Shown here in pieces: positions 24,285 through 37,597 of a DNA stretch of 64,000 nt. The first letter of the stretch is position 1. Each line of letters starts with the position of its first letter. The stretch spans positions 1,743,720-1,807,719 of the forward strand of contig NZ_QXHD01000004.1 in assembly GCF_011009555.1 (NCBI RefSeq), read 5' to 3'. A model generated the notes under the pieces. That model did not search any database and was not told where the DNA came from. It saw nothing but the letters and a program-made list of their open reading frames with translations. Source of the DNA: Adonisia turfae CCMR0081 (GTDB lineage Bacteria; Cyanobacteriota; Cyanobacteriia; Phormidesmidales; Phormidesmidaceae). A program made the position numbers and the translations under genes.

Positions 24285-25823
24285 ATGACAAGTGTAATTT
24301 ATCTCGAAGAAAACGGCCCATGGTTATCTAGTTTGGGCGATGTTTATGAGTTTTATGAACAATCTTTATCTAGCAATACGGTTAGTCCACAAACCTATGG
24401 TTTTGAGGTAGAGTTCTACGCTTTACAACAGCAAAGCGATTATGCAGGACATCTGGCTAATGTCGCTCAAGTTCAGCGTGTATTAGATGATTTAAAGGTT
24501 TCGAATACGGATTCCAGCGATGCTGTTTATACACTAGACCTGGCTCAACAATTAGAATTTGCCTCTGCCCCCCGCGATTCTATCACTGCGCTCTATCAGC
24601 ATGGTCAAGAAGCCGAGCAATTACTGCAAAAAACAACTGAGCGTCATGGCCTTAGACCATCAGCATTATCTGTTCACCCTAGCGCCAATTGGTCTGATCC
24701 AGACTACATTAACCATATTGATCAAGAGCTAATTTCTGATGAACGCACCCAACTAGTCATTCCATGCTTTCAGCGTAGCATCGACAGTGCAAAACAACCG
24801 TACTCTGCCCATGATCTTTTGGCAACCTGCGGTATCCATACCACATTTGCGATTCACAACAAAATAGTACTCGAAGAAACACTAACCCTTGTTGGTGCAG
24901 TAACCTCACTCATTGCTGCGGCCAATCATGCTAGTCCGTTTTCCTATTTTGAGAATGCACAAAATTCTGTCCGTGAACTCTTATGGGATGCAAGCCTCAC
25001 TCGCAGTGATAACCGTTTTGGTTTGCCACCGCAGCTTTCTGGTGCAGTGACCCTCGATGATGTCATCACACATATCATCAATCAACCGATGTGGTATGGC
25101 ATTGACCAATACAATAATCTTCATGAGATTGCTAAACCAGTTACATTTGCCGATCTCATACGAACTGGCGGCATACATCTTGACGATACGTTTATTGCAC
25201 CAACATTAGAGCAATATATCAATCATTCCCGCACCTGTTATAACAGTTACCGTGTGAAACCAACCTTTGCTGCTGATGGCATGATGTGTCTCACGGAGTT
25301 CCGAATTCCCGACGGTGGTGGTATGGGCAAAGCTGTCATGAATGTGGCGCTTATTCATGGCTTGACCCATAGTGCCGAAGCCCGTGGCCAATTCCGTCAG
25401 ATTTTAGAGCGTTATGGTTTGCTTGATGTTACAGATAGTAAACAAGATGCGTATGAACGCAATAAGATTTTGCAGCAGAACTTATTAAAAAATAGTCTCT
25501 ACGGAACAACTTTACCCTACAGAGGAGAAACTGCCATCACAGTTTGGCAAGAAATTATTGATTTGGCCTGTCATGAATTATCTGCTAAAGAAGATACACC
25601 AGAAATTCAACAAGTTTTGAACAAACTACAGGCAACAACCTATGTGAGTGAAGCAGAACAGCATCGTAAGTCCTTACAACGACTCGATATCGATCCGCAA
25701 CAGCTTAGTAAACCGCACTATGCCGACAAGTTAGATCTGTTAACGGGCTATGCCCAGTTTGGGGAATACTACGAACTACCGCCTGCTCGTGTACTCTATC
25801 ATCGGGCCGGGGACGGGCGGTAA
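24285..25823 (+). CDS. glutamate-cysteine ligase-like enzyme (GCS2/carboxylate-amine ligase fold), divergent
   Basis: A 512-residue enzyme. The N-terminal YGFEVEFYAL (residues 38-46) matches the first metal/substrate strand of plant/bacterial-type glutamate-cysteine ligases (GxEVE). In the middle, CGIHTTFAIHNK and LIAAANHASPF correspond to the metal-binding and helix segments of that fold, and MCLTEFRIPDGGG provides a C-terminal Glu/Arg strand. It should catalyse ATP-dependent peptide bond formation on a carboxyl group, probably of Glu. It is longer than the usual cyanobacterial GshA (about 380 residues) and lacks easy resemblance elsewhere, so the amine partner may not be Cys. Its downstream neighbour is GshB-like, ten bases away. 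Confidence 0.7.
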   Translation: MTSVIYLEENGPWLSSLGDVYEFYEQSLSSNTVSPQTYGFEVEFYALQQQSDYAGHLANVAQVQRVLDDLKVSNTDSSDAVYTLDLAQQLEFASAPRDSITALYQHGQEAEQLLQKTTERHGLRPSALSVHPSANWSDPDYINHIDQELISDERTQLVIPCFQRSIDSAKQPYSAHDLLATCGIHTTFAIHNKIVLEETLTLVGAVTSLIAAANHASPFSYFENAQNSVRELLWDASLTRSDNRFGLPPQLSGAVTLDDVITHIINQPMWYGIDQYNNLHEIAKPVTFADLIRTGGIHLDDTFIAPTLEQYINHSRTCYNSYRVKPTFAADGMMCLTEFRIPDGGGMGKAVMNVALIHGLTHSAEARGQFRQILERYGLLDVTDSKQDAYERNKILQQNLLKNSLYGTTLPYRGETAITVWQEIIDLACHELSAKEDTPEIQQVLNKLQATTYVSEAEQHRKSLQRLDIDPQQLSKPHYADKLDLLTGYAQFGEYYELPPARVLYHRAGDGR

Positions 25824-25832
25824 TGGTTTTCT

Positions 25833-27056
25833 ATGACCCACAAAGTCTTTATCTTTGATTCCATGATGCAGAAAAATGTGTTATTCATCACTGACCCTAT
25901 TGATTCCTTAGAGCCAGGGCACGATACCTCATTGGGTTTGATGGAAGCTGCCATTAAACATGGCGATCGAGTTTTTGTCACCACCCCTAAAGACTTCGTG
26001 ATTAACTCCGACAGCCATGTTGGTAATATATATGCCGCTGTTCGAGAAGTCACTAGCTTTGCGCAACAGCAACATCCAACCGAAAATAAAAGGGTCTCAG
26101 CACCTGTTACTAATGGCACTGTTGTCAATATGACACTTAATTACCCACCTGGAAGCAGCGCAGGTAAAAATTCTATTGCGGCACCAGTTGCGGTTTTGCA
26201 GCGGCAGGATGACCGTAGTGACTGGTCAACCCAGCAAATTGCCACCAGGCTACATCCCAAGATTTGTGTCCTCAATGGTGGTGAAGCCACTTTAAGCACA
26301 GAAGACAAAATTGCAATCGTCACAGATTTTCCAGATCTTTGCCCACCCAGTATGATCACTGCCGACGCAGATAAACTGATTGGGTTTGCAGAGCACATGA
26401 AGTATGAAGGTGATCAAAAACTGGTGCTTAAGGCGACCCAGAGTTATGGTGGCAACGATGTTAAAATCATTCAATTAACAGATGTAAATTGGCAGCAGCA
26501 AATACGAGACTATACGCAGGAAAAAAACGCAACTAAACGTCCTATGATTGTTGCCCAAAAATTTCTGTCCGATGTTAAGAATGGCGATATGCGTATTTTC
26601 TATATCAATGGTAAACCCATTGCCGCTGTAAATCGTGTCCCCTCCCATGAAGAAACCCTAGCAAATATGGCTCAAGGCGGCATTGGCATTGCTGTTCCGC
26701 TGAGAAATATCTCACCAACTACTATGGCAGCCGTGCATCAGGTTGTTGACTGGGGTAAAAGACAAGGGATTGTTATTGTTGGCGTTGATGTAATTGGGCA
26801 GGACAGACCCTATATTACTGAGCTTAACCCAGGTTCGCCAACCGGACTGATTGAAGCTCAGGAACAGTTGGGCCAAGATGTATGTAGTGAAGCTTGGGTT
26901 GCGGTCAAAGAAGCTATTCATGAGCATCAAATAGCCCATGGAAATCTTTTATCCTTACACTGGCAGTTTATCTCAGAGCTATTTCAGCATCCAGGGTCCT
27001 ACCTTGCTAACGTTGCTGCGTTAGCACAGCGATGGCTTATTACAAGGTTCTCTTAG
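25833..27056 (+). CDS. glutathione synthetase-like ATP-grasp enzyme, divergent
   Basis: 407 residues with clear GshB similarity. The N-terminal VLFITDPIDSLEPGHDTSLGLMEAAIKHGDRVFV matches the GshB substrate domain. Residues about 70-120 form an insert not usual in GshB. The ATP-grasp part shows KLVLKATQSYGGNDV, VAQKFLSDVKNGDMRIFYINGKPIAAVNRVP and YITELNPGSPTGLIEAQEQLG, with the family's ELN metal ligand. GshB normally joins gamma-Glu-Cys and Gly. Because the gene forms a two-gene unit with a divergent ligase, I infer a dedicated dipeptide/tripeptide pathway, perhaps a thiol other than glutathione. Whether it is the only GshB of the genome cannot be seen here. Confidence 0.78.
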   Translation: MTHKVFIFDSMMQKNVLFITDPIDSLEPGHDTSLGLMEAAIKHGDRVFVTTPKDFVINSDSHVGNIYAAVREVTSFAQQQHPTENKRVSAPVTNGTVVNMTLNYPPGSSAGKNSIAAPVAVLQRQDDRSDWSTQQIATRLHPKICVLNGGEATLSTEDKIAIVTDFPDLCPPSMITADADKLIGFAEHMKYEGDQKLVLKATQSYGGNDVKIIQLTDVNWQQQIRDYTQEKNATKRPMIVAQKFLSDVKNGDMRIFYINGKPIAAVNRVPSHEETLANMAQGGIGIAVPLRNISPTTMAAVHQVVDWGKRQGIVIVGVDVIGQDRPYITELNPGSPTGLIEAQEQLGQDVCSEAWVAVKEAIHEHQIAHGNLLSLHWQFISELFQHPGSYLANVAALAQRWLITRFS

Positions 27057-27193: not shown

Positions 27194-29629
27194 TTATGTA
27201 CAAGCAATAATTTGTGCTAGATAACTTTCTACCTTTGTCGCTGGCAAGGGTTTAGAAAATAGATATCCCTGGCCTGCATCACATCCCAGTTCATGTAATT
27301 CAGTCAGCTGCTCATGGGCTTCAACCCCTTCGGCAATGGTGTTAAACCCTAATGCTTTAGCCAGGTTTACAATCGCACTCGTAATTCTAAAATTGCGATC
27401 GCTATTATTTAACCCATCGACAAAAGAACGATCGATCTTAATTGTTGAGATCGGAAATTGCTGCAAATATCGCAGAGAGGAAAACCCAGTGCCGAAGTCA
27501 TCAAGACTCAGTTCAATACCTCGATTACAAATCAACTTCATAATTTCAGTAGCCGCTTGGGTATTTTGAATGAGACTACTTTCAGTAATTTCTAATTTGA
27601 GACATTGTGGATCCAATTGAGTCTCTGTCAGGATAGTATCAAGGGTGTAAATTAGAGACGGATTCCGAAACTGTTGACCAGACAGATTAACACTTAAGTA
27701 TACATCCATCGTCACCTTTCCCTTGGCTTGCCAGGTTTTTAACTGCTTGCAAGCATTTCGTAAAACCCATTCATCTATGACATTAATTTGTCCTGTTTCT
27801 TCAGCAATGGGGATGAATTCAGAGGCTGGGATAAGACCTTGGTCTGGGTGATGCCAGCGCAATAGAACCTCAAATCCTTTCAGTTGATGGGGAGGATTAA
27901 GATTGACCAGGGGTTGATAATACAAGCAAAACTCTTGTGTTTTTATGGCTTTTCGCAACGCTGTTTCGATTTCTACTAAACGCAGGGTTTGAAGATACAT
28001 CGTTTGATCAAAGATGGCGTAGCTTGATTTTCCCTGGCTTTTAGCCCGATACATAGCAATGTCGGCATCGCGGATAATGTCATCAACCGATTGATACGAT
28101 AAATTGGAAAAAACAACACCAATACTAGCACTGGTAAAGATTTCCCGAGCCCCCAATTGAAAAGATTTTTGTAACTCCTTTTGTAGGCGATATACCGTCT
28201 TTAAAGCATCATTCAGATGATCTAGTTTCTCTAGCAGAATCAGAAACTCATCACCCCCCAAGCGCGCCACGCCATCTATCCCTCTGACTACCGCCTTCAG
28301 CCTTTGGGAGACCTGAATCAGTAGCTGGTCACCCACCAGATGCCCAAGGCTATCATTGATATACTTAAAGTTATCGAGATCCACAAACAGAACCGCAAAA
28401 TGTTCATGGGGCTGCCGTTTCTGGTGCTCGATGGCAAGTTCCAGGCGGTTTAAACAACAGACTCGGTTATCCAAGCCAGTTAAACTGTCGTGTAATGTTT
28501 CGTAAGTTAAACGGGCTGCAGACGCCTTGCGTTGAGTAATATCGCGCCCACTACCGTACAATAAATTCTCTTGGGGGAATGGCACTAGATTCCAGGCTAT
28601 CCAATGATAAGTTCCATCTTTTGATCGCACTTGAAATTCCAGCCCATTGATGTCTTGTCCCTGGGCTAGGGTATCCTGTAAATCCTGTTTACTATGCTGA
28701 TCTTCGGGAAGCATGAATTGCCAGAAAGACTGGCCTAACAAATCATCAGCGGCATAACCCAATGTAGCCAACCAGGAAGGATTGATGCGCTTAAATACAC
28801 CGTCTGCGTCTGCAATAAATAATAAATCAATCGCAAGGTTGAAAAAACGATCGCGTTCTAGCTCAGCTTGCTTACGTTCGGTAATATCATGAATCATGCC
28901 AAATCGTAGGGTTTGTTGTTGCGCTTTGACCCACGACTCAGACAGTAACACGGTTCGATCTAGCCCTATGGAAGATTCCAGGGACAGCTCAGTTTTGAAT
29001 GTAGAGTTTTTTTGTGTTTGACGGTTTTGGTTTCCCTGGGATAACAATTGTTGCAATATTGGAGATTGCAGTGGGTCTAGTGGTTGTCCCAATGTTGGTT
29101 TAGCTGGGTGGGTGCAAAGTTGTCTGAGGGATTGATTTAAAAACAGTAACGCTCCCTCTTCAGTCGCCATATATACACCATCATGAATACTCTGAAGCAC
29201 ATGGGTTAATAAGCATATTTCCGCTGCCGCTTGAGTGCGTTCTATCGCATGCAAGATTGAACGTTCCAGGAGTGGGCCGGTCAACAGGTTACCTTTAACT
29301 AAATAGTCTGAGGCTCCCATCGCCATACATTGACGATCGATATCGTAGTTGCTTAACCCTGTCAAAAGGATCACTGGCTTACGTAGACCAGATTCTACAG
29401 CGGCTTGCAATAGCTCTAAGCCAGTTTTTGCCCCTAAACGATAGTCCAATAAATAAACATCATAAAAATCAGCATGTAGGGCCTCAAGGCCAGCTTGAAA
29501 AGTATTTACCCAGTTCAACTCAAAGGATGCTTGTTCTGAGTCTTGTAATAAGTCTCGGGTAACAATATAATCATCTTCATCGTCGTCGATTAGTAAGACT
29601 TGGTATGACAAATCACTCATTGTTATCAT
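27194..29629 (-). CDS. response regulator REC-PAS-PAS-GGDEF-EAL (c-di-GMP turnover)
   Basis: 811 residues. An N-terminal receiver has the acidic cluster DDDEDD and phosphoacceptor Asp62 in VYLLDYRLG. One PAS-like region (about 140-255) and a second PAS with PAC (about 260-375) follow. GGDEF is intact (RLGGDEFLILLEK), predicting diguanylate cyclase activity. The EAL domain begins FEVLLRWHHPDQG, so the signature is EVL with the catalytic Glu kept, and it retains LSVNLSGQQF, KLEITES, LDDFGTGFSSL and EGVEAH. Both activities are therefore possible. ATG 29620 is an alternative start. It is the last gene of the kinase-receiver operon and the likely output. Confidence 0.92.
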   Translation of the reverse strand: MITMSDLSYQVLLIDDDEDDYIVTRDLLQDSEQASFELNWVNTFQAGLEALHADFYDVYLLDYRLGAKTGLELLQAAVESGLRKPVILLTGLSNYDIDRQCMAMGASDYLVKGNLLTGPLLERSILHAIERTQAAAEICLLTHVLQSIHDGVYMATEEGALLFLNQSLRQLCTHPAKPTLGQPLDPLQSPILQQLLSQGNQNRQTQKNSTFKTELSLESSIGLDRTVLLSESWVKAQQQTLRFGMIHDITERKQAELERDRFFNLAIDLLFIADADGVFKRINPSWLATLGYAADDLLGQSFWQFMLPEDQHSKQDLQDTLAQGQDINGLEFQVRSKDGTYHWIAWNLVPFPQENLLYGSGRDITQRKASAARLTYETLHDSLTGLDNRVCCLNRLELAIEHQKRQPHEHFAVLFVDLDNFKYINDSLGHLVGDQLLIQVSQRLKAVVRGIDGVARLGGDEFLILLEKLDHLNDALKTVYRLQKELQKSFQLGAREIFTSASIGVVFSNLSYQSVDDIIRDADIAMYRAKSQGKSSYAIFDQTMYLQTLRLVEIETALRKAIKTQEFCLYYQPLVNLNPPHQLKGFEVLLRWHHPDQGLIPASEFIPIAEETGQINVIDEWVLRNACKQLKTWQAKGKVTMDVYLSVNLSGQQFRNPSLIYTLDTILTETQLDPQCLKLEITESSLIQNTQAATEIMKLICNRGIELSLDDFGTGFSSLRYLQQFPISTIKIDRSFVDGLNNSDRNFRITSAIVNLAKALGFNTIAEGVEAHEQLTELHELGCDAGQGYLFSKPLPATKVESYLAQIIACT

Positions 29630-29783: not shown

Positions 29784-30257
29784 TTAAGGCCTTGATGCTG
29801 AGCTGACCTCATCTGGCAAATGTACAATTTGAAACCAGTATGTACCAAGGGTTTTCATGATATCAACCATGGATTGAAAGCCCACAGGTTTAGTAATAAA
29901 TGAGTTAGCACCCAAATCATAGGTTTTTAAGATATCTTCTTCGGCTTTAGATGTGGTTAATACTACGACTGGAATACTGCGTAGTACAGGATCCTTCTTA
30001 ATCTCTTCCAGGGCTTCACGACCATCTTTGCGAGGCATATTCAGGTCCAATAAAATTAACGTGGGACGGGGTGCAACATCAGGGTCACTGTAGTTTCCTC
30101 GTTGATATAGATAATCCATCAGGTCTTCCCCATCTTCAACGAAATACAGCTCGTTAGCAACTCGATTTTCGGCTAAGGCTTCCTGGGTAAAAAGGCGATC
30201 GTCCTCATCGTCGTCGGCCATTAAAATAATCGCAGGTTTACTCCGTTGTTGAGACAT
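29784..30257 (-). CDS. Rcp1-like single-domain response regulator
   Basis: A 157-residue stand-alone receiver with no output domain. It shows ADDDEDDR (acidic pocket), the phosphoacceptor Asp71 in LILLDLNMPRKDGREAL, Thr/Ser in VVVLTTSKAEEDI and the Lys of FITKPV. The KDGREAL segment and the long insert before beta-3 are typical of the Rcp1 family that partners cyanobacterial phytochrome-type kinases. Its start overlaps the 3' end of the upstream kinase by 20 bases, so the two are translationally coupled. It would shuttle phosphoryl groups between the kinase and a further target, possibly the neighbouring REC-GGDEF-EAL protein. Confidence 0.93.
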   Translation of the reverse strand: MSQQRSKPAIILMADDDEDDRLFTQEALAENRVANELYFVEDGEDLMDYLYQRGNYSDPDVAPRPTLILLDLNMPRKDGREALEEIKKDPVLRSIPVVVLTTSKAEEDILKTYDLGANSFITKPVGFQSMVDIMKTLGTYWFQIVHLPDEVSSASRP

Positions 30258-33200
30258 TCTCCTCTCCTTGGGAATGATGAACTGGTAAGGTGGCGATAAA
30301 TGTGGCTCCTTCTCCAGGCTGACTTTCTGCCCGGAGTATTCCCCCGTGACGGTGAATCACCTTACGACAAATTGCTAAACCAATACCACTGCCCTCATAG
30401 GCTTTGCGTCCGTGAAGGCGCTGAAATGGCTGAAAAATGCGATCGCAATACTTAACATCAAAACCTATTCCATTGTCGATTACTCGTAATTCACAAAATT
30501 CTTTTCCTCCCGTAAAATAACTCCGCATCCTCACATGAACCTGGGGTACTACATTTGGTTTATGAAACTTGAGGGCATTCCCGACAAGATTTTGAAAGAC
30601 CTGTTGCATTTGCATGCGGTCAGCATCAATGATCGGTAACGGCTCCACATCTACGGTAGCCCCAGTTTGCTCAATGCGAACCTCTAAATCCGATAAAACC
30701 CCTGCCATAACTTGTGATAAGTCTGTGGGGGTAAAGGGTTTAGCCTGCGTTGTCACCCTCGAAAAGCTAAGCAAATCATTAATCAGCGCCTGGGCACGCA
30801 CTGCCGCATTTAGCATTCGTGCCAAATAGTCTTGCCCTTTCTCAGAAAGCCGATCTTGACAGGTATGGCTTAAGCGATCGCCAAAGACTTGTACTTTCCG
30901 CAGAGGTTCCTGGAGATCATGGGAAGCCACATAGGCAAAATCCTGAAGTTCTTGGTTACTTTCCCCTAGGCGTTGGGTGGTAAGTTGCAACGCCTGAATC
31001 ACTTGCTGACGCCTTTTGACTTCGGCCTTAAGTTGATCCTCTGCCGCCTTACGGGCCGAAATATCTCGCATAATTTTTGAGCCCCCAATCACCTGGCCAG
31101 TTCGATCCCTTAGGGGGGAAATGGTCAGCGACACGTCTAAAAGCGTACCGTTTTTATGACGACGAACCGTTTCAAAATGGTCAATGCTCTTGCCCTGAGT
31201 GATCTGTGCAAGAATATAAACTTCTTCAGAAATCCGATCATTTGGGAAAAGCATGGTGATCGGTTGTCCGATTGCTTCTGATGCTGAATACCCCAGAAGT
31301 TTTTCTGCTCCTACATTCCAACTGGTAATGGAACAATTGAGATCCTTGGTAATGATGGCGTCTTCGGTAGACTCCACCACCGCAGCCAGCAACCGAGCCG
31401 TTTGTAGCGATCGATAATGCTGCATTGTGTGCCAGACCAGATTGGAAATCAACTGCACCGTCTCAACATCCATATCGGTGTAGCTGCTGTCCTTGTTGCC
31501 AACTCCTGTGAGCATCACGACTTTGCCATTTTCAATGACAGGAATACTCAGGAGGCAACTAAGGTGCTCATGATTTTGCAATAATCCTTGTGTTTGAAGA
31601 AAGTCTTGTTCTTGTCGAGCGGGACCACAGGCATAATTGCAAATTATAGACTTGCGCTGATGTAGAACATCAGCCAAAATCCCCGCCTGATTAATTGGCA
31701 GACCAGCCTTAGCGACGGTATTACCAAAGTCAGTTAAGGTTTGCTGCCCCCCACCCATCAATTCAAAGGTTGCTTGATCCTCATAGACAAGATAAAGGAA
31801 TGCGACCTGACTACCCGTCAGGTTTTTGGCAATATCCTGGGCCTGTTGTATAAATTCATGTTCATTCAATTGCTCAGCTAGTTGAGATAGCTCTAGCAAA
31901 GCCTCCGCCCGACATGTCTGGTGGGTCAGGGCTAACTCAGCTGCATGGATTTCTGAGATATCTCGCACGCTGACGACAGCCCCGGTAATCGTTCCATCTA
32001 CTTCGTGATAAGGGGCATAGGTAACATCCAGATACTGCTGTTGCTGTCGCTCATCAGGCAGGGAAAATAGACTTTGGTAGTGAACTGTTTCCCCTGCAAA
32101 GGTGCGATCAAGATTAGGTTTAATAGTTTGCAAAAATACGCCCTCGCCCAGAAGCTCTGCTACGGAATGACCAATAATCTCGGCTTTGGATTTACCAAAT
32201 TTTTGAGCATAGGCATCATTGACCATGGAATAGATATAATGGCAATCCACAAATGACATATGGTCGGGTGTAGTACACACCGCACGCTCATAGAGACGCA
32301 GCATTTCTTCCGTTTGTTTGCGAGCCGTGATATCTTCTATCACCTCAATAAAATAATCCGGCTCACCATTCTGAAGCCTTACCAAGGAAACCGTCACATG
32401 GGCCCACATAAGAGTTCCATTCTTTCGGATATAGCGTTTTTCCATGGAGAAGGTCTGAATCTGATTTGTAAGAACCTGCTGTGTATAGTTCAGGTCATGC
32501 TCCACATCCTCATCCTCTAGGTAGGTAATGTCTTGAAACGTAAGGTTTAAAAGTTCTTGTTGTGAATAGCCAAGAATTTCACAGTAGCGCTGATTAAGAC
32601 GAATAAATTGCCTGGTGATAGCAAGATGTGCAATGCCTACCGCCGCTTGCTCAAACGTGTTTCGAAACAAGGCTTCTTTTTGCGCAACTTCATCTGTAGC
32701 AGCTTTCAGTCGAAGTTCTGTTTGTTTACGCTCGGTAATATTAGTCAGACATCCTATATAGCCGATCACTTCATGGGCGTGATCGAACTCTGGGACCGCT
32801 TTTTCATATACCCAAGTCACTGGGCCTGATGGATTTCCAAATCGATATTCCACTTGAAAGGGAAGATTCTGGCTAGTAGCGTTATGCCATTCTGCCAAAA
32901 TAACGTCTCGATCCTCTGGATAGATAGCCTGAATCCATCCTGCTCCTAACATTTTCTCCGAGGGCAACCGAGCAATCTCGCATAAATGTTTGTTGACATA
33001 AATACAACTTCCCTCAGTATTTGCCCGAAAAATGCCTACGGGAGCCGTAGCCGCAAGGCTAGCAAAGCGTTCTTCACTCGCCATCAACTGGTGTTCGGCC
33101 TGTTTACGATCGGTGATGTCGTAGTTTGTCCCAATCATACGAATAGGGGTTCCCTCGTCATCCCGTTGCACCAGGCCATCCGCTTTCATATAGCGAATTA

Positions 33201-33915
33201 CGCCATCGGCATGAACTACCCGAAATTCAATGTCATAGACGGCTTCATTGCGTAAAGCACGCTGTATAGCAGCTTCTGCATGCGGTCGATCCTCTGGATG
33301 AACACGCTTTGCCCAGGCTGAGTAATCTCGCTCAAACGCTTCCGGTGTAGTGCCATAGAGTTCATAGAACCGACTATCCCAGATCAATTTATTGTGAGTG
33401 ATGTTCCAATCCCAAATACCAATGCCCACTGCCTCCAGCGCTAAGTCTAGCCGGGTCGATAATTCTCGTAGCTCTACTTCAGCTTGTCTACGCTCAGCGA
33501 TTTCCTGTTCCAATTGTTGATTTAAGGCTTCTAGCTTAGCTGGGGTACGTAAGTCTAGAGCTTTAGGTAGCATGGGGATGAGGGCAATCGCAGTATACGT
33601 AGAAATACCGGCTGTCACCGCTTTAAGAACACCAGAAACCCAATAGTCTGAATGCCATAGGGTCCAGACCTCAACTAAATGTGTGGTGCCACATAAAAAA
33701 ATACATGCTGCAAAAAGCAGAAATATTTTATAAAAGGGGATACTCTCACGCTTTTTCAGGAAACAGATTAAGGTGATGGCAATAGAATAGTAAGCCAGCC
33801 CAATGAAAGTGTCTGATACTAAATGTAAGCCAACTAGACTGGGCCTCCACCCATAGCAGTAGCCATGGGGCATATATTGGCTAAGCCATGAAATACTCAA
33901 CATTTTGGAGAACAA
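30238..33915 (-). CDS. ethylene-receptor-like multi-PAS/GAF histidine kinase
   Basis: 1225 residues. The N-terminal 130 hold three membrane helices that match the ethylene-binding domain of plant ETR1 and cyanobacterial Etr1. Numbered against ETR1, Asp25, Tyr32, Ile35, Ile62, Cys65 and His69 correspond to Asp35, Tyr42, Ile45, Ile72, Cys75 and His79 with one constant offset; only Pro36 is changed (Ala46). Cys and His hold the Cu(I) cofactor in ETR1. Then come four PAS domains (about 150-660), a GAF (about 690-840), a fifth PAS (about 845-960), HisKA with the phospho-acceptor His999 in VASHDLQEPLRK, and a HATPase with NALKF, DNGIG and GSGIGLAI. It heads an operon with an Rcp1-like receiver and a c-di-GMP enzyme. 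Ethylene binding is inferred, not shown. Confidence 0.9.
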   Translation of the reverse strand: MFSKMLSISWLSQYMPHGYCYGWRPSLVGLHLVSDTFIGLAYYSIAITLICFLKKRESIPFYKIFLLFAACIFLCGTTHLVEVWTLWHSDYWVSGVLKAVTAGISTYTAIALIPMLPKALDLRTPAKLEALNQQLEQEIAERRQAEVELRELSTRLDLALEAVGIGIWDWNITHNKLIWDSRFYELYGTTPEAFERDYSAWAKRVHPEDRPHAEAAIQRALRNEAVYDIEFRVVHADGVIRYMKADGLVQRDDEGTPIRMIGTNYDITDRKQAEHQLMASEERFASLAATAPVGIFRANTEGSCIYVNKHLCEIARLPSEKMLGAGWIQAIYPEDRDVILAEWHNATSQNLPFQVEYRFGNPSGPVTWVYEKAVPEFDHAHEVIGYIGCLTNITERKQTELRLKAATDEVAQKEALFRNTFEQAAVGIAHLAITRQFIRLNQRYCEILGYSQQELLNLTFQDITYLEDEDVEHDLNYTQQVLTNQIQTFSMEKRYIRKNGTLMWAHVTVSLVRLQNGEPDYFIEVIEDITARKQTEEMLRLYERAVCTTPDHMSFVDCHYIYSMVNDAYAQKFGKSKAEIIGHSVAELLGEGVFLQTIKPNLDRTFAGETVHYQSLFSLPDERQQQQYLDVTYAPYHEVDGTITGAVVSVRDISEIHAAELALTHQTCRAEALLELSQLAEQLNEHEFIQQAQDIAKNLTGSQVAFLYLVYEDQATFELMGGGQQTLTDFGNTVAKAGLPINQAGILADVLHQRKSIICNYACGPARQEQDFLQTQGLLQNHEHLSCLLSIPVIENGKVVMLTGVGNKDSSYTDMDVETVQLISNLVWHTMQHYRSLQTARLLAAVVESTEDAIITKDLNCSITSWNVGAEKLLGYSASEAIGQPITMLFPNDRISEEVYILAQITQGKSIDHFETVRRHKNGTLLDVSLTISPLRDRTGQVIGGSKIMRDISARKAAEDQLKAEVKRRQQVIQALQLTTQRLGESNQELQDFAYVASHDLQEPLRKVQVFGDRLSHTCQDRLSEKGQDYLARMLNAAVRAQALINDLLSFSRVTTQAKPFTPTDLSQVMAGVLSDLEVRIEQTGATVDVEPLPIIDADRMQMQQVFQNLVGNALKFHKPNVVPQVHVRMRSYFTGGKEFCELRVIDNGIGFDVKYCDRIFQPFQRLHGRKAYEGSGIGLAICRKVIHRHGGILRAESQPGEGATFIATLPVHHSQGEENVSTTE

Positions 33916-35561: not shown

Positions 35562-36878
35562 ATGGTCCTAAATCCACCCTCCCGACTGTTCCCAGATCTC
35601 ACAGTCACCAGACCCTTACGCATACTGCTGCATATTGAGTGGATTTTGCTCAGTATGGGTGTGCTGGTTAGCATTACGGCCATGGTTTTCCATCGGACAT
35701 TTCAGGTTACCTGGCTAGAACTGCTCTTGTTTGGTTTGATTGGCGTCATGGGGCTTTATTTACCGCTGACTCAGTGCCGGGCCAAGATTCTTTATACCGC
35801 AATCGAGCTTAGCCTCTTCGGTATTTTGGTTCTGCGTTGTTTTGATAATCCTTTGATGGTCAGGATTATCCCACTGCTGGGATTGGTCATTATCATCCGT
35901 AGTTGTCAAATCTTTCACACACGAGGGCGACTCGTAGTGGCCGGCATTACGTTTAGCTCACATTTATTTTTATCATTAACTTTGGGTCAGACGGCCATGA
36001 GCCGAAATCTATCCCGACTGATGTCAACCCCTGAGGCATGGCAGGTAAGCGTGTTTCAGACCAATGCCATTATTCTCTTTACCCTGGCGCTACTGTTTGT
36101 TTTTTTACTGGTGGATGCTTTGCTCAGTCTTCATAGGAATCAACAGAAACTGGAGAGCGCCCATGGTCAATTACAACAATATGCGCTACAGGTGGAAGGC
36201 CAGGCCGCATTACAAGAACGTAATCGCATCGCCCGCGAAATTCATGACTCCCTCGGACATTCCCTGACCGCTCAAACTATTTTGCTAGAAAATGTCCTCC
36301 TCTTTTGGGGACAAGATAATGGACGGGCAAAATCCTATCTGCTTGAAGCTAAAGATTCATCTTATCAGGCGCTCAAAGAGGTTTCACGGGCTGTTGCGGC
36401 TCTGCGCGACTCTCCTCAAACGGATAAATCTTTGCAGGTGGCGATTACCGAATTGGTTAATAAGGTCTGTCAATCCACACCGATAACGCCAGCGTGTGAG
36501 ATTAATATTACGGCACCGCTGTCCGATGAGCTGAGTCTGACCGCCTACCGGATTGTGCAGGAAGCCCTCACCAATGTGGTGAAACACGCCCAAGCCACAC
36601 AGCTATCTGTGCAGCTATCGACTAAACCACAGAGTCTCTATGTAGAAGTGTTGGATAATGGCAAAGGGTTTGATCCTAGCAAAAATACGACCGGATTTGG
36701 CTTACGGGGCATGAAAGAACGTGCGATCGCACTTAGTGGAACCTGCCAAATCTGGAGTGCATCAGGGACTGGCTGTCGCATCAGCGTAGTTTTGCCTCTT
36801 CCTCAGACTCTAGAGTCTCCTCTACCTCTACCAAATTCGAATTCAGTATCGGTGACAGGTGACCAGAACTTTATATGA
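35562..36878 (+). CDS. NarL-type sensor histidine kinase (HisKA_3)
   Basis: 438 residues. About six hydrophobic segments fill the first 190 residues, followed by a short coiled coil and the HisKA_3 dimerisation helix ERNRIAREIHDSLGHSLTAQ with phospho-His228. The ATPase part shows AYRIVQEALTNVVKHA (N box), VLDNGKGF (G1) and GLRGMKERA (G2), as in the NarX/DesK class. The partner response regulator follows 38 bases after the stop. The sensing mode is unknown; the membrane core resembles DesK-type sensors of membrane state, which is an inference. Confidence 0.92.
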   Translation: MVLNPPSRLFPDLTVTRPLRILLHIEWILLSMGVLVSITAMVFHRTFQVTWLELLLFGLIGVMGLYLPLTQCRAKILYTAIELSLFGILVLRCFDNPLMVRIIPLLGLVIIIRSCQIFHTRGRLVVAGITFSSHLFLSLTLGQTAMSRNLSRLMSTPEAWQVSVFQTNAIILFTLALLFVFLLVDALLSLHRNQQKLESAHGQLQQYALQVEGQAALQERNRIAREIHDSLGHSLTAQTILLENVLLFWGQDNGRAKSYLLEAKDSSYQALKEVSRAVAALRDSPQTDKSLQVAITELVNKVCQSTPITPACEINITAPLSDELSLTAYRIVQEALTNVVKHAQATQLSVQLSTKPQSLYVEVLDNGKGFDPSKNTTGFGLRGMKERAIALSGTCQIWSASGTGCRISVVLPLPQTLESPLPLPNSNSVSVTGDQNFI

Positions 36879-36916
36879 GAGATTGATGAATGGGGAGATC
36901 TAAGGAGGTCAAGAGG

Positions 36917-37597
36917 ATGATTCGTGTCTTACTGGTGGATGACCAACCCATTATTCGACAAGGTTTGGCCAATCTGTTGGAAAATCAACCTGATTTACAG
37001 GTAGTTGGCGACGCAGCCAATGGTCAACAGGCGATTGATCACGTCTCAACACTCTATGGCACCCCCAATCAACCTGATGTAATTTTGATGGATGTGCGGA
37101 TGCCGGTGGTGGATGGTGTTGCGGCAACAAAACAGATCTGTGCCGACTTTCCAGCGGTAAACATTTTAGTGCTCACCACATTTGACGATAGTGACTATGT
37201 CCAGCAAGCTATGGGTTGGGGGGCTAAAGGCTATTTGCTTAAGCAAACCCCTATTCAGGACTTGGTGATGGCTATTCGAGCTGTCTATCAAGGTTATACC
37301 CACATGGGACCTGGTCTTTTTGAAAAGACGTTAGGCGCTTCTCAAGCACCAGGAGCACCTCTTGTTCATGCTGAAACTGCACTTCCTGAAAAATTGAGAT
37401 CGCTATCCCCCCGCGAACAAGAGGTGCTCCAATTGATTGTTACAGGACTCAATAACCGCGAAATTGGAGAAAACCTTTTTATCTCTGAGCGCACCGTTCG
37501 GAACCATGTCACCAGCATTTTGAGCCAACTCCAACTGCGCGATCGCACACAAGCAGCTTTGTACGCCAGTCAATTTTGGCCCCAGAGTATGCGCTAA
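36917..37597 (+). CDS. NarL/FixJ family response regulator
   Basis: 226 residues. The receiver domain has VDDQP, phosphoacceptor Asp59 in VILMDVRMPVVDG, Thr in VLVLTTFDD and Lys in GYLLKQT. The C-terminal LuxR helix-turn-helix is LSPREQEVLQLIVTGLNNREIGENLFISERTVRNHVTSILSQLQLRDRTQAALYA. ATG 36917 has AAGGAGG nine bases upstream, so the nine-codon longer frame is rejected. It is the cognate partner of the kinase at 35562-36878. Target genes are not apparent. Confidence 0.93.
   Translation: MIRVLLVDDQPIIRQGLANLLENQPDLQVVGDAANGQQAIDHVSTLYGTPNQPDVILMDVRMPVVDGVAATKQICADFPAVNILVLTTFDDSDYVQQAMGWGAKGYLLKQTPIQDLVMAIRAVYQGYTHMGPGLFEKTLGASQAPGAPLVHAETALPEKLRSLSPREQEVLQLIVTGLNNREIGENLFISERTVRNHVTSILSQLQLRDRTQAALYASQFWPQSMR

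Follow-up and report, generated by a model that had tools for sequence, protein, structure and literature searches.

Plant ETR1 and tomato NR (ETR3) bind ethylene in a membrane domain with a Cu(I) site, and the site changed in the Never-ripe mutant is position 36 of this domain (PMC6727826). Bacterial ethylene receptors with varied outputs are already known. Here we describe a sensor kinase gene of the cyanobacterium Adonisia turfae CCMR0081, located at 30238..33915 (minus) of a stretch of 64,000 nucleotides from contig NZ_QXHD01000004.1 (hereafter the window). The kinase has the same type of membrane domain, ETR1_N, and its new part is a variant of the binding pocket: the Never-ripe change is Pro to Leu, whereas the window carries Pro to Ala and additionally Phe61 to Cys (ETR1 numbering).

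Three bacterial receptors are suited for comparison. SynEtr1/UirS (slr1212) of Synechocystis is likewise an ETR1_N histidine kinase of a cyanobacterium; it contains a cyanobacteriochrome and passes its signal on to slr1213, which acts at the level of transcription (PMC6682694), whereas the window kinase has five PAS domains, one GAF domain and an adjoining enzyme of the biofilm signal cyclic di-GMP (c-di-GMP). GeiEtr2 of Geitlerinema sp. PCC 7105 resembles the window kinase as a cyanobacterial receptor with PAS and GAF domains and is grouped with a gene containing a diguanylate cyclase domain, where the window has a GGDEF-EAL gene; unlike the window kinase, it keeps all seven residues required for ethylene binding and has a C-terminal receiver (PMC6682694). 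AzoEtr1 of Azospirillum brasilense is an ETR1_N kinase with a lone receiver behind it, as in the window; it binds ethylene in assays, D35A and C75A mutants have been made, and ethylene lowers c-di-GMP in this organism (PMC11819568). The accessible part of that paper names no GGDEF-EAL gene next to AzoEtr1, in contrast to the window. D35, Y42, I45, I72, C75 and H79 of AzoEtr1 bear the same numbers as in the window kinase, but AzoEtr1 has Pro46 where the window has Ala46, and its frame is shorter (525 aa).

The ortholog of Leptolyngbya sp. PCC 7375 (NZ_JH993797.1, locus L103) shares the architecture and a three-gene unit with the window, and its kinase is 95% identical; it has Pro36, Phe61 and Trp12, whereas the window has Ala36, Cys61 and Gly12. 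The two genes form a natural matched pair of kinases in the same operon which differ at Pro36 and Phe61, and this opens two questions to experiment: does ethylene binding depend on Pro36 in receptors other than those of plants, and is c-di-GMP the route by which the bacterial receptors act? With the wiring to the c-di-GMP enzyme apparently intact, the window kinase offers a natural experiment on what part of the gas-binding pocket is indispensable. The reading we prefer, to which we give about an even chance, is that of a kinase of the ethylene-receptor type in which ethylene binding is weakened or altered and the output to c-di-GMP is intact.

The kinase and its binding pocket

The coordinates that a first-pass annotation of this DNA had given for the kinase coincide exactly with those of an open reading frame (ORF) on the minus strand, which gives 1225 aa if read from a TTG codon and 1221 aa if read from an ATG at 33903. 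The ATG is probably the start, since Met5 is common to the window kinase and its three orthologs (PCC 7375, a Leptolyngbyaceae metagenome-assembled genome and Leptothoe kymatousa) and the L. kymatousa protein has Ser at the position of the TTG codon. The domain order is ETR1_N-PAS4-GAF-PAS-HisKA-HATPase_c. For the ETR1_N membrane domain (residues 15-122; 33550..33873, minus) the Pfam match spans residues 27-122 with E 8.6e-36 and 122.5 bits against a cut-off of 27, which bears out the proposed membership of the ethylene-receptor family. Three long helices, taken as transmembrane, were predicted by AlphaFold2 (mean predicted local distance difference test score 89.1 over residues 5-150). Among solved structures the best sequence match was no better than E 0.82 and no fold match was obtained at E <=0.001. 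The five PAS domains and the GAF domain cover residues 156-960 (31036..33450, minus; boundaries approximate), followed by HisKA and HATPase_c at residues 990-1212 (30280..30948, minus), in which the catalytic motifs are complete: the phospho-acceptor His999 in HDLQEP, NALKF, DNGIGF and GSGIGLAI. With the ETR1_N cut-off passed and these motifs present, the protein is an ETR1_N-domain histidine kinase. The other Pfam matches were PAS models (PAS_4 with five stretches), GAF_2, HisKA and HATPase_c, the GAF region matching GAF_2/GAF only. The arrangement of five PAS, one GAF and a histidine kinase, as originally proposed, was also found by profile annotation of the PCC 7375 ortholog (ETR-PAS-PAS-PAS-PAS-GAF-PAS-HisKA-HATP).

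Residues D35, Y42, I45, I72, C75 and H79 of the window kinase correspond to ETR1 D25, Y32, I35, I62, C65 and H69, and A46 occupies the P36 column; of the seven residues that ETR1 requires six are thus retained, one short of the full set expected of a functional receptor. The alignment with ETR1 on which the first-pass annotation relied holds, the Cys/His pair included. Its single constant offset of ten is valid from the TTG start up to helix 2, but it becomes six when counted from the probable ATG, and it shifts past the loop behind helix 2. Likewise, Ala is the sole deviation among the seven residues, but the annotation overlooked the rarer change of Phe61, and the Pro36 of close orthologs was not known to it. 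On the minus strand the codons lie at 33811..33813 (Asp35, ETR1 Asp25), 33778..33780 (Ala46, ETR1 Pro36), 33703..33705 (Cys71, ETR1 Phe61), 33691..33693 (Cys75, ETR1 Cys65) and 33679..33681 (His79, ETR1 His69). Lys98 and Ser105, which we take to be the equivalents of ETR1 Lys91 and Ser98, are both kept.

The ancestor of the kinase was presumably a usual Cu(I)-dependent ethylene receptor whose pocket would have been altered recently in the window species by the replacement of Pro36 with Ala and Phe61 with Cys. Copper is probably still bound by the domain, because Asp25, Cys65 and His69, the copper ligands of ETR1 (PMC12643061), all remain. High-affinity ethylene binding has most likely been weakened or lost, and the PAS and GAF modules may supply most of the remaining input to the kinase. 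The argument for a loss of affinity draws on mutagenesis of AtETR1 as cited by others and on Never-ripe: the residues listed as essential for ethylene binding by AtETR1 include P36 (PMC6586836), the seven required residues were found by alanine-scanning (PMC11819568) and are likewise given as seven in PMC6682694, and the Pro36Leu form of tomato ETR3 is the ethylene-insensitive Never-ripe (PMC6727826). Since the seven came from alanine-scanning, Ala at position 36 is presumably the very replacement that was assayed in AtETR1. No paper treating P36A, ETR1 and ethylene binding together was found among the best-ranked literature matches, and a natural replacement of Pro36 had no match among the titles and abstract openings searched, a coverage that mostly excludes subscription papers.

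Cys61 also permits a different view of the pocket. Cys61-x3-Cys65-x3-His69 follow each other at i, i+4 and i+8 on transmembrane helix 2, and in the AlphaFold2 model the three residues (67, 71 and 75 of the model) lie inside one confident helix, 58-81. Sco1 has a copper site of the Cys-x3-Cys form. The window domain might hence bind Cu(I) as a Cys2His site, or its thiols might respond to oxidants, with ethylene no longer being sensed. The singular occurrence of Cys61 in the window and the placement of the three residues in the model speak for such a rewired metal or redox site; its occurrence in one genome only and its origin from a single T-to-G change speak against it, and we consider it improbable. 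No better is the prospect of a wider proposition, namely that the two replacements made a different sensor (Cys2His Cu(I) or thiol-redox) driving the c-di-GMP operon and that cyanobacterial receptors usually begin their departure from ethylene with the replacement of Pro36.

Frequency and polarity of Ala36 and Cys61

The ETR1_N domain is widespread and was present in 208 of 388 genomes of the class; in a search for viral homologs, none of the 19 pattern-matching stretches encoded a relative. For the analysis of residue frequencies 252 distinct domains were compiled. They derived from relatives within the window's family (over-sampled), 30 loci of the best class matches, 80 named contigs nearest the query, 60 class regions (one per genome, outside the family, among the better-scoring matches listed), 10 of 18 plasmid records and 20 regions picked as divergent-looking or from the family's Ala36 clade. 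Three matches of fewer than 85 aa were dropped, and three distant rows were excluded from the tree.

Position 36 was occupied by Pro in 214 domains, Ala in 29, Ser in six and Thr in three, and never by Leu. With 38 of the 252 domains lacking it, Pro36 is the most frequently replaced of the seven residues. Position 61 has Phe in 248 domains, Ile in two, Leu in one and Cys in one, which is the window alone. A breakdown of 234 domains by source (overlapping groups) gave Pro36 in 30/30 of the best class matches, 76/81 of the named contigs, 10/10 of the plasmid loci and 47/66 of the window's family and relatives. In the class sample it was present in 62/62 domains, a set chosen among the better-scoring matches listed and not drawn at random, in which divergent members are under-sampled. 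Receptors without Pro36 thus seem to be uncommon in the class and to cluster in the window's family. Gly12 of the window is unusual as well, as 225 of 234 domains have Leu at this position; the PCC 7375 ortholog deviates there too.

The closest orthologs, from Leptolyngbya sp. PCC 7375, the Leptolyngbyaceae metagenome-assembled genome and L. kymatousa, all carry Pro36 (CCC) and Phe61 (TTT). As these three orthologs have Pro and Phe, both replacements are, by sequence comparison, derived in the window lineage, the change to Ala36 being a separate event there. Each required one codon change, CCC to GCC and a single T-to-G from TTT to TGT. The 249-row tree called for ten switches between Pro and other residues at position 36 (nine on 167 rows), with weak support from a short alignment. 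Since each replacement is a single base and one genome of the species was examined, a sequencing error or a polymorphism among strains might be suspected at either codon or at both; the ORF, however, is open across 1225 codons, the remainder of the gene is under constraint (ratio of nonsynonymous to synonymous substitution rates, dN/dS, 0.17 against PCC 7375) and Ala36 arises independently elsewhere on the tree, so that we regard such an artefact as very unlikely.

Receptors without Pro36

A number of observations weigh against weakened binding in the window kinase. The other six residues are retained in 30 of the 38 domains without Pro36. Within one clade of 14 Ala36 domains (pairwise identity at least 63%, mean 81%) all six are invariant, for which the chance is 0.017 if invariant columns fell randomly. 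As most of these domains keep the six residues and the clade keeps them without exception, Ala36 can evidently, as far as conservation tells, coexist with a selected pocket. Relaxed selection on the whole sensor domain was considered as an explanation but was not supported (8 replacing and 6 silent codon changes in the domain versus 45 and 74 elsewhere in the gene, against PCC 7375, p 0.25; two derived changes in ETR1_N in the window versus two in PCC 7375), and the sensor domain has not changed demonstrably faster. In addition, the losses of Cys65 described below amount to three events on the tree, with which tree-aware paired tests cannot reach significance.

It is therefore conceivable that the window kinase is a fully working ethylene receptor which tolerates Ala36 and Cys61, ethylene controlling c-di-GMP as in the Pro36 relatives. 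The retained copper ligands and the presumed Lys91 equivalent are in line with this, as are the fixation of Ala36 in the clade with the invariant pocket, the small size of all replacements at position 36 (Ala, Ser, Thr) and the conserved three-gene operon. It conflicts with the naming of P36 as essential in AtETR1, with the uniform presence of Pro36 in the class sample and with the concurrent change of Phe61 to a residue seen once in the collection. On balance we hold a fully working receptor to be unlikely, though less so than a rewired site, and put the chance that the window domain binds similarly to its Pro36 ortholog at about a quarter.

Weakened binding gains from the domains in which the copper site itself has changed. 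Cys65 is lost in four domains, all without Pro36 (4/38 versus 0/214; naive Fisher p 4.5e-4, relatedness ignored). For two of the three events, the most closely related domains have kept Cys65 but not Pro36 (branch support 39 and 84), and for this reason the replacement of Pro36 probably preceded the loss of Cys65. The third event is a receptor from another genome of the same genus, a sister of the window's group on a long branch (Shimodaira-Hasegawa-like approximate likelihood-ratio support 89). Its operon (locus L040, 1034-7420, minus) is headed by the ETR1_N kinase, which carries Ala36 and Gly65, and further encodes another PAS kinase, a receiver and a response regulator-PAS-GGDEF-EAL protein; the copper site has apparently been lost and the output kept. 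As this Gly65 receptor continues to stand at the head of a c-di-GMP operon, it seems that in the window's lineage the output has survived the loss of the copper site.

Further variation was noticed at position 25. Asn25 is paired with Arg at the presumed Lys91 column in five of nine domains, whereas Asp25 is so paired in 11 of 221 (relatedness ignored), which may point to covariation of the two positions. Distant ETR1_N relatives with Asn25 and Cys65/His69-like residues occur at L101:987-5330 (-), L289:959-2920 (+) and L288:327-2345 (-); L289 continues into PAS and L288 into GGDEF, and they possibly represent a sister family. A further ETR1_N protein, 730 aa long, is encoded in the genome of A. 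turfae itself (G000:C11:1026026-1026322; L045:4899-7088, plus); it has Asn25 and Pro36 and is composed of a kinase, a receiver and a GAF match below the Pfam cut-off. Neither of its two ETR1_N copies has all seven residues, whereas PCC 7375 has one complete copy.

The putative c-di-GMP operon and neighbouring genes

Downstream of the kinase lies a gene for a lone response regulator of 157 aa with phospho-acceptor motif (29784..30257, minus), which overlaps the kinase stop by 20 nt and is preceded by a Shine-Dalgarno-like GGAGAGGAG. After a gap of 154 nt it is followed by a gene for a response regulator-PAS-PAS-GGDEF-EAL protein of 811 aa (27194..29629, minus) with an RxxD site and the motifs GGDEF, EVLLRW, DDFGTG and EGVE. 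A receiver-bearing GGDEF-EAL protein with intact motifs hence adjoins the kinase, and the gene order is kept in relatives: the three-gene unit is present in PCC 7375 (95, 99 and 98% identity) and L. kymatousa (75, 84 and 81%), while the contig of the metagenome-assembled genome ends just past the receiver gene. The earlier suggestion that the kinase heads an operon with a c-di-GMP enzyme is supported at the level of gene order by the overlap and by the conservation of the unit in two orthologs. In the reading we prefer, the kinase would pass phosphate to the lone receiver, to the receiver of the GGDEF-EAL protein or to both, and phosphorylation would shift the balance of GGDEF and EAL activities and thereby set c-di-GMP.

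Coupling to c-di-GMP genes or domains was found for 22 of the 159 complete ETR ORFs that had 1500 bases or more downstream, eight being fused to GGDEF/EAL and 14 having a GGDEF/EAL gene within the next three genes; in the class sample it comprised 7 of 56. Such genes were not significantly more frequent with ETR kinases than with the remaining kinases of these loci (22/159 versus 2/46, p 0.12). Both positive control kinases sit within ETR operons (L040 and L275) and are for this reason not independent.

Among the fused proteins, minimal forms of about 300 aa consist of ETR1_N linked directly to GGDEF, with the GGDEF motif and without a kinase (L284:902-1816, +; L285:923-1816, +; L286:901-1866, -), and frames of similar length occur among the matches listed in other genomes of the family. 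They are possible one-protein sensors from ethylene to c-di-GMP. ETR1_N-PAS proteins which end in GGDEF or GGDEF-EAL and not in a kinase were found at L127, L137, L162, L172, L046, L279, L247 and L282.

Counts of promoter-like sites (17 versus 13.8 in shuffles, standard deviation 3.0) and terminator-like sites (5 versus 6.8) were not used. Convergent with the c-di-GMP gene, a GCS2-like glutamate-cysteine ligase gene and then a glutathione synthetase-like gene are located at 24285-27056 (plus). At 35562-37597 (plus) the window encodes a HisKA_3 kinase and a LuxR-type response regulator.

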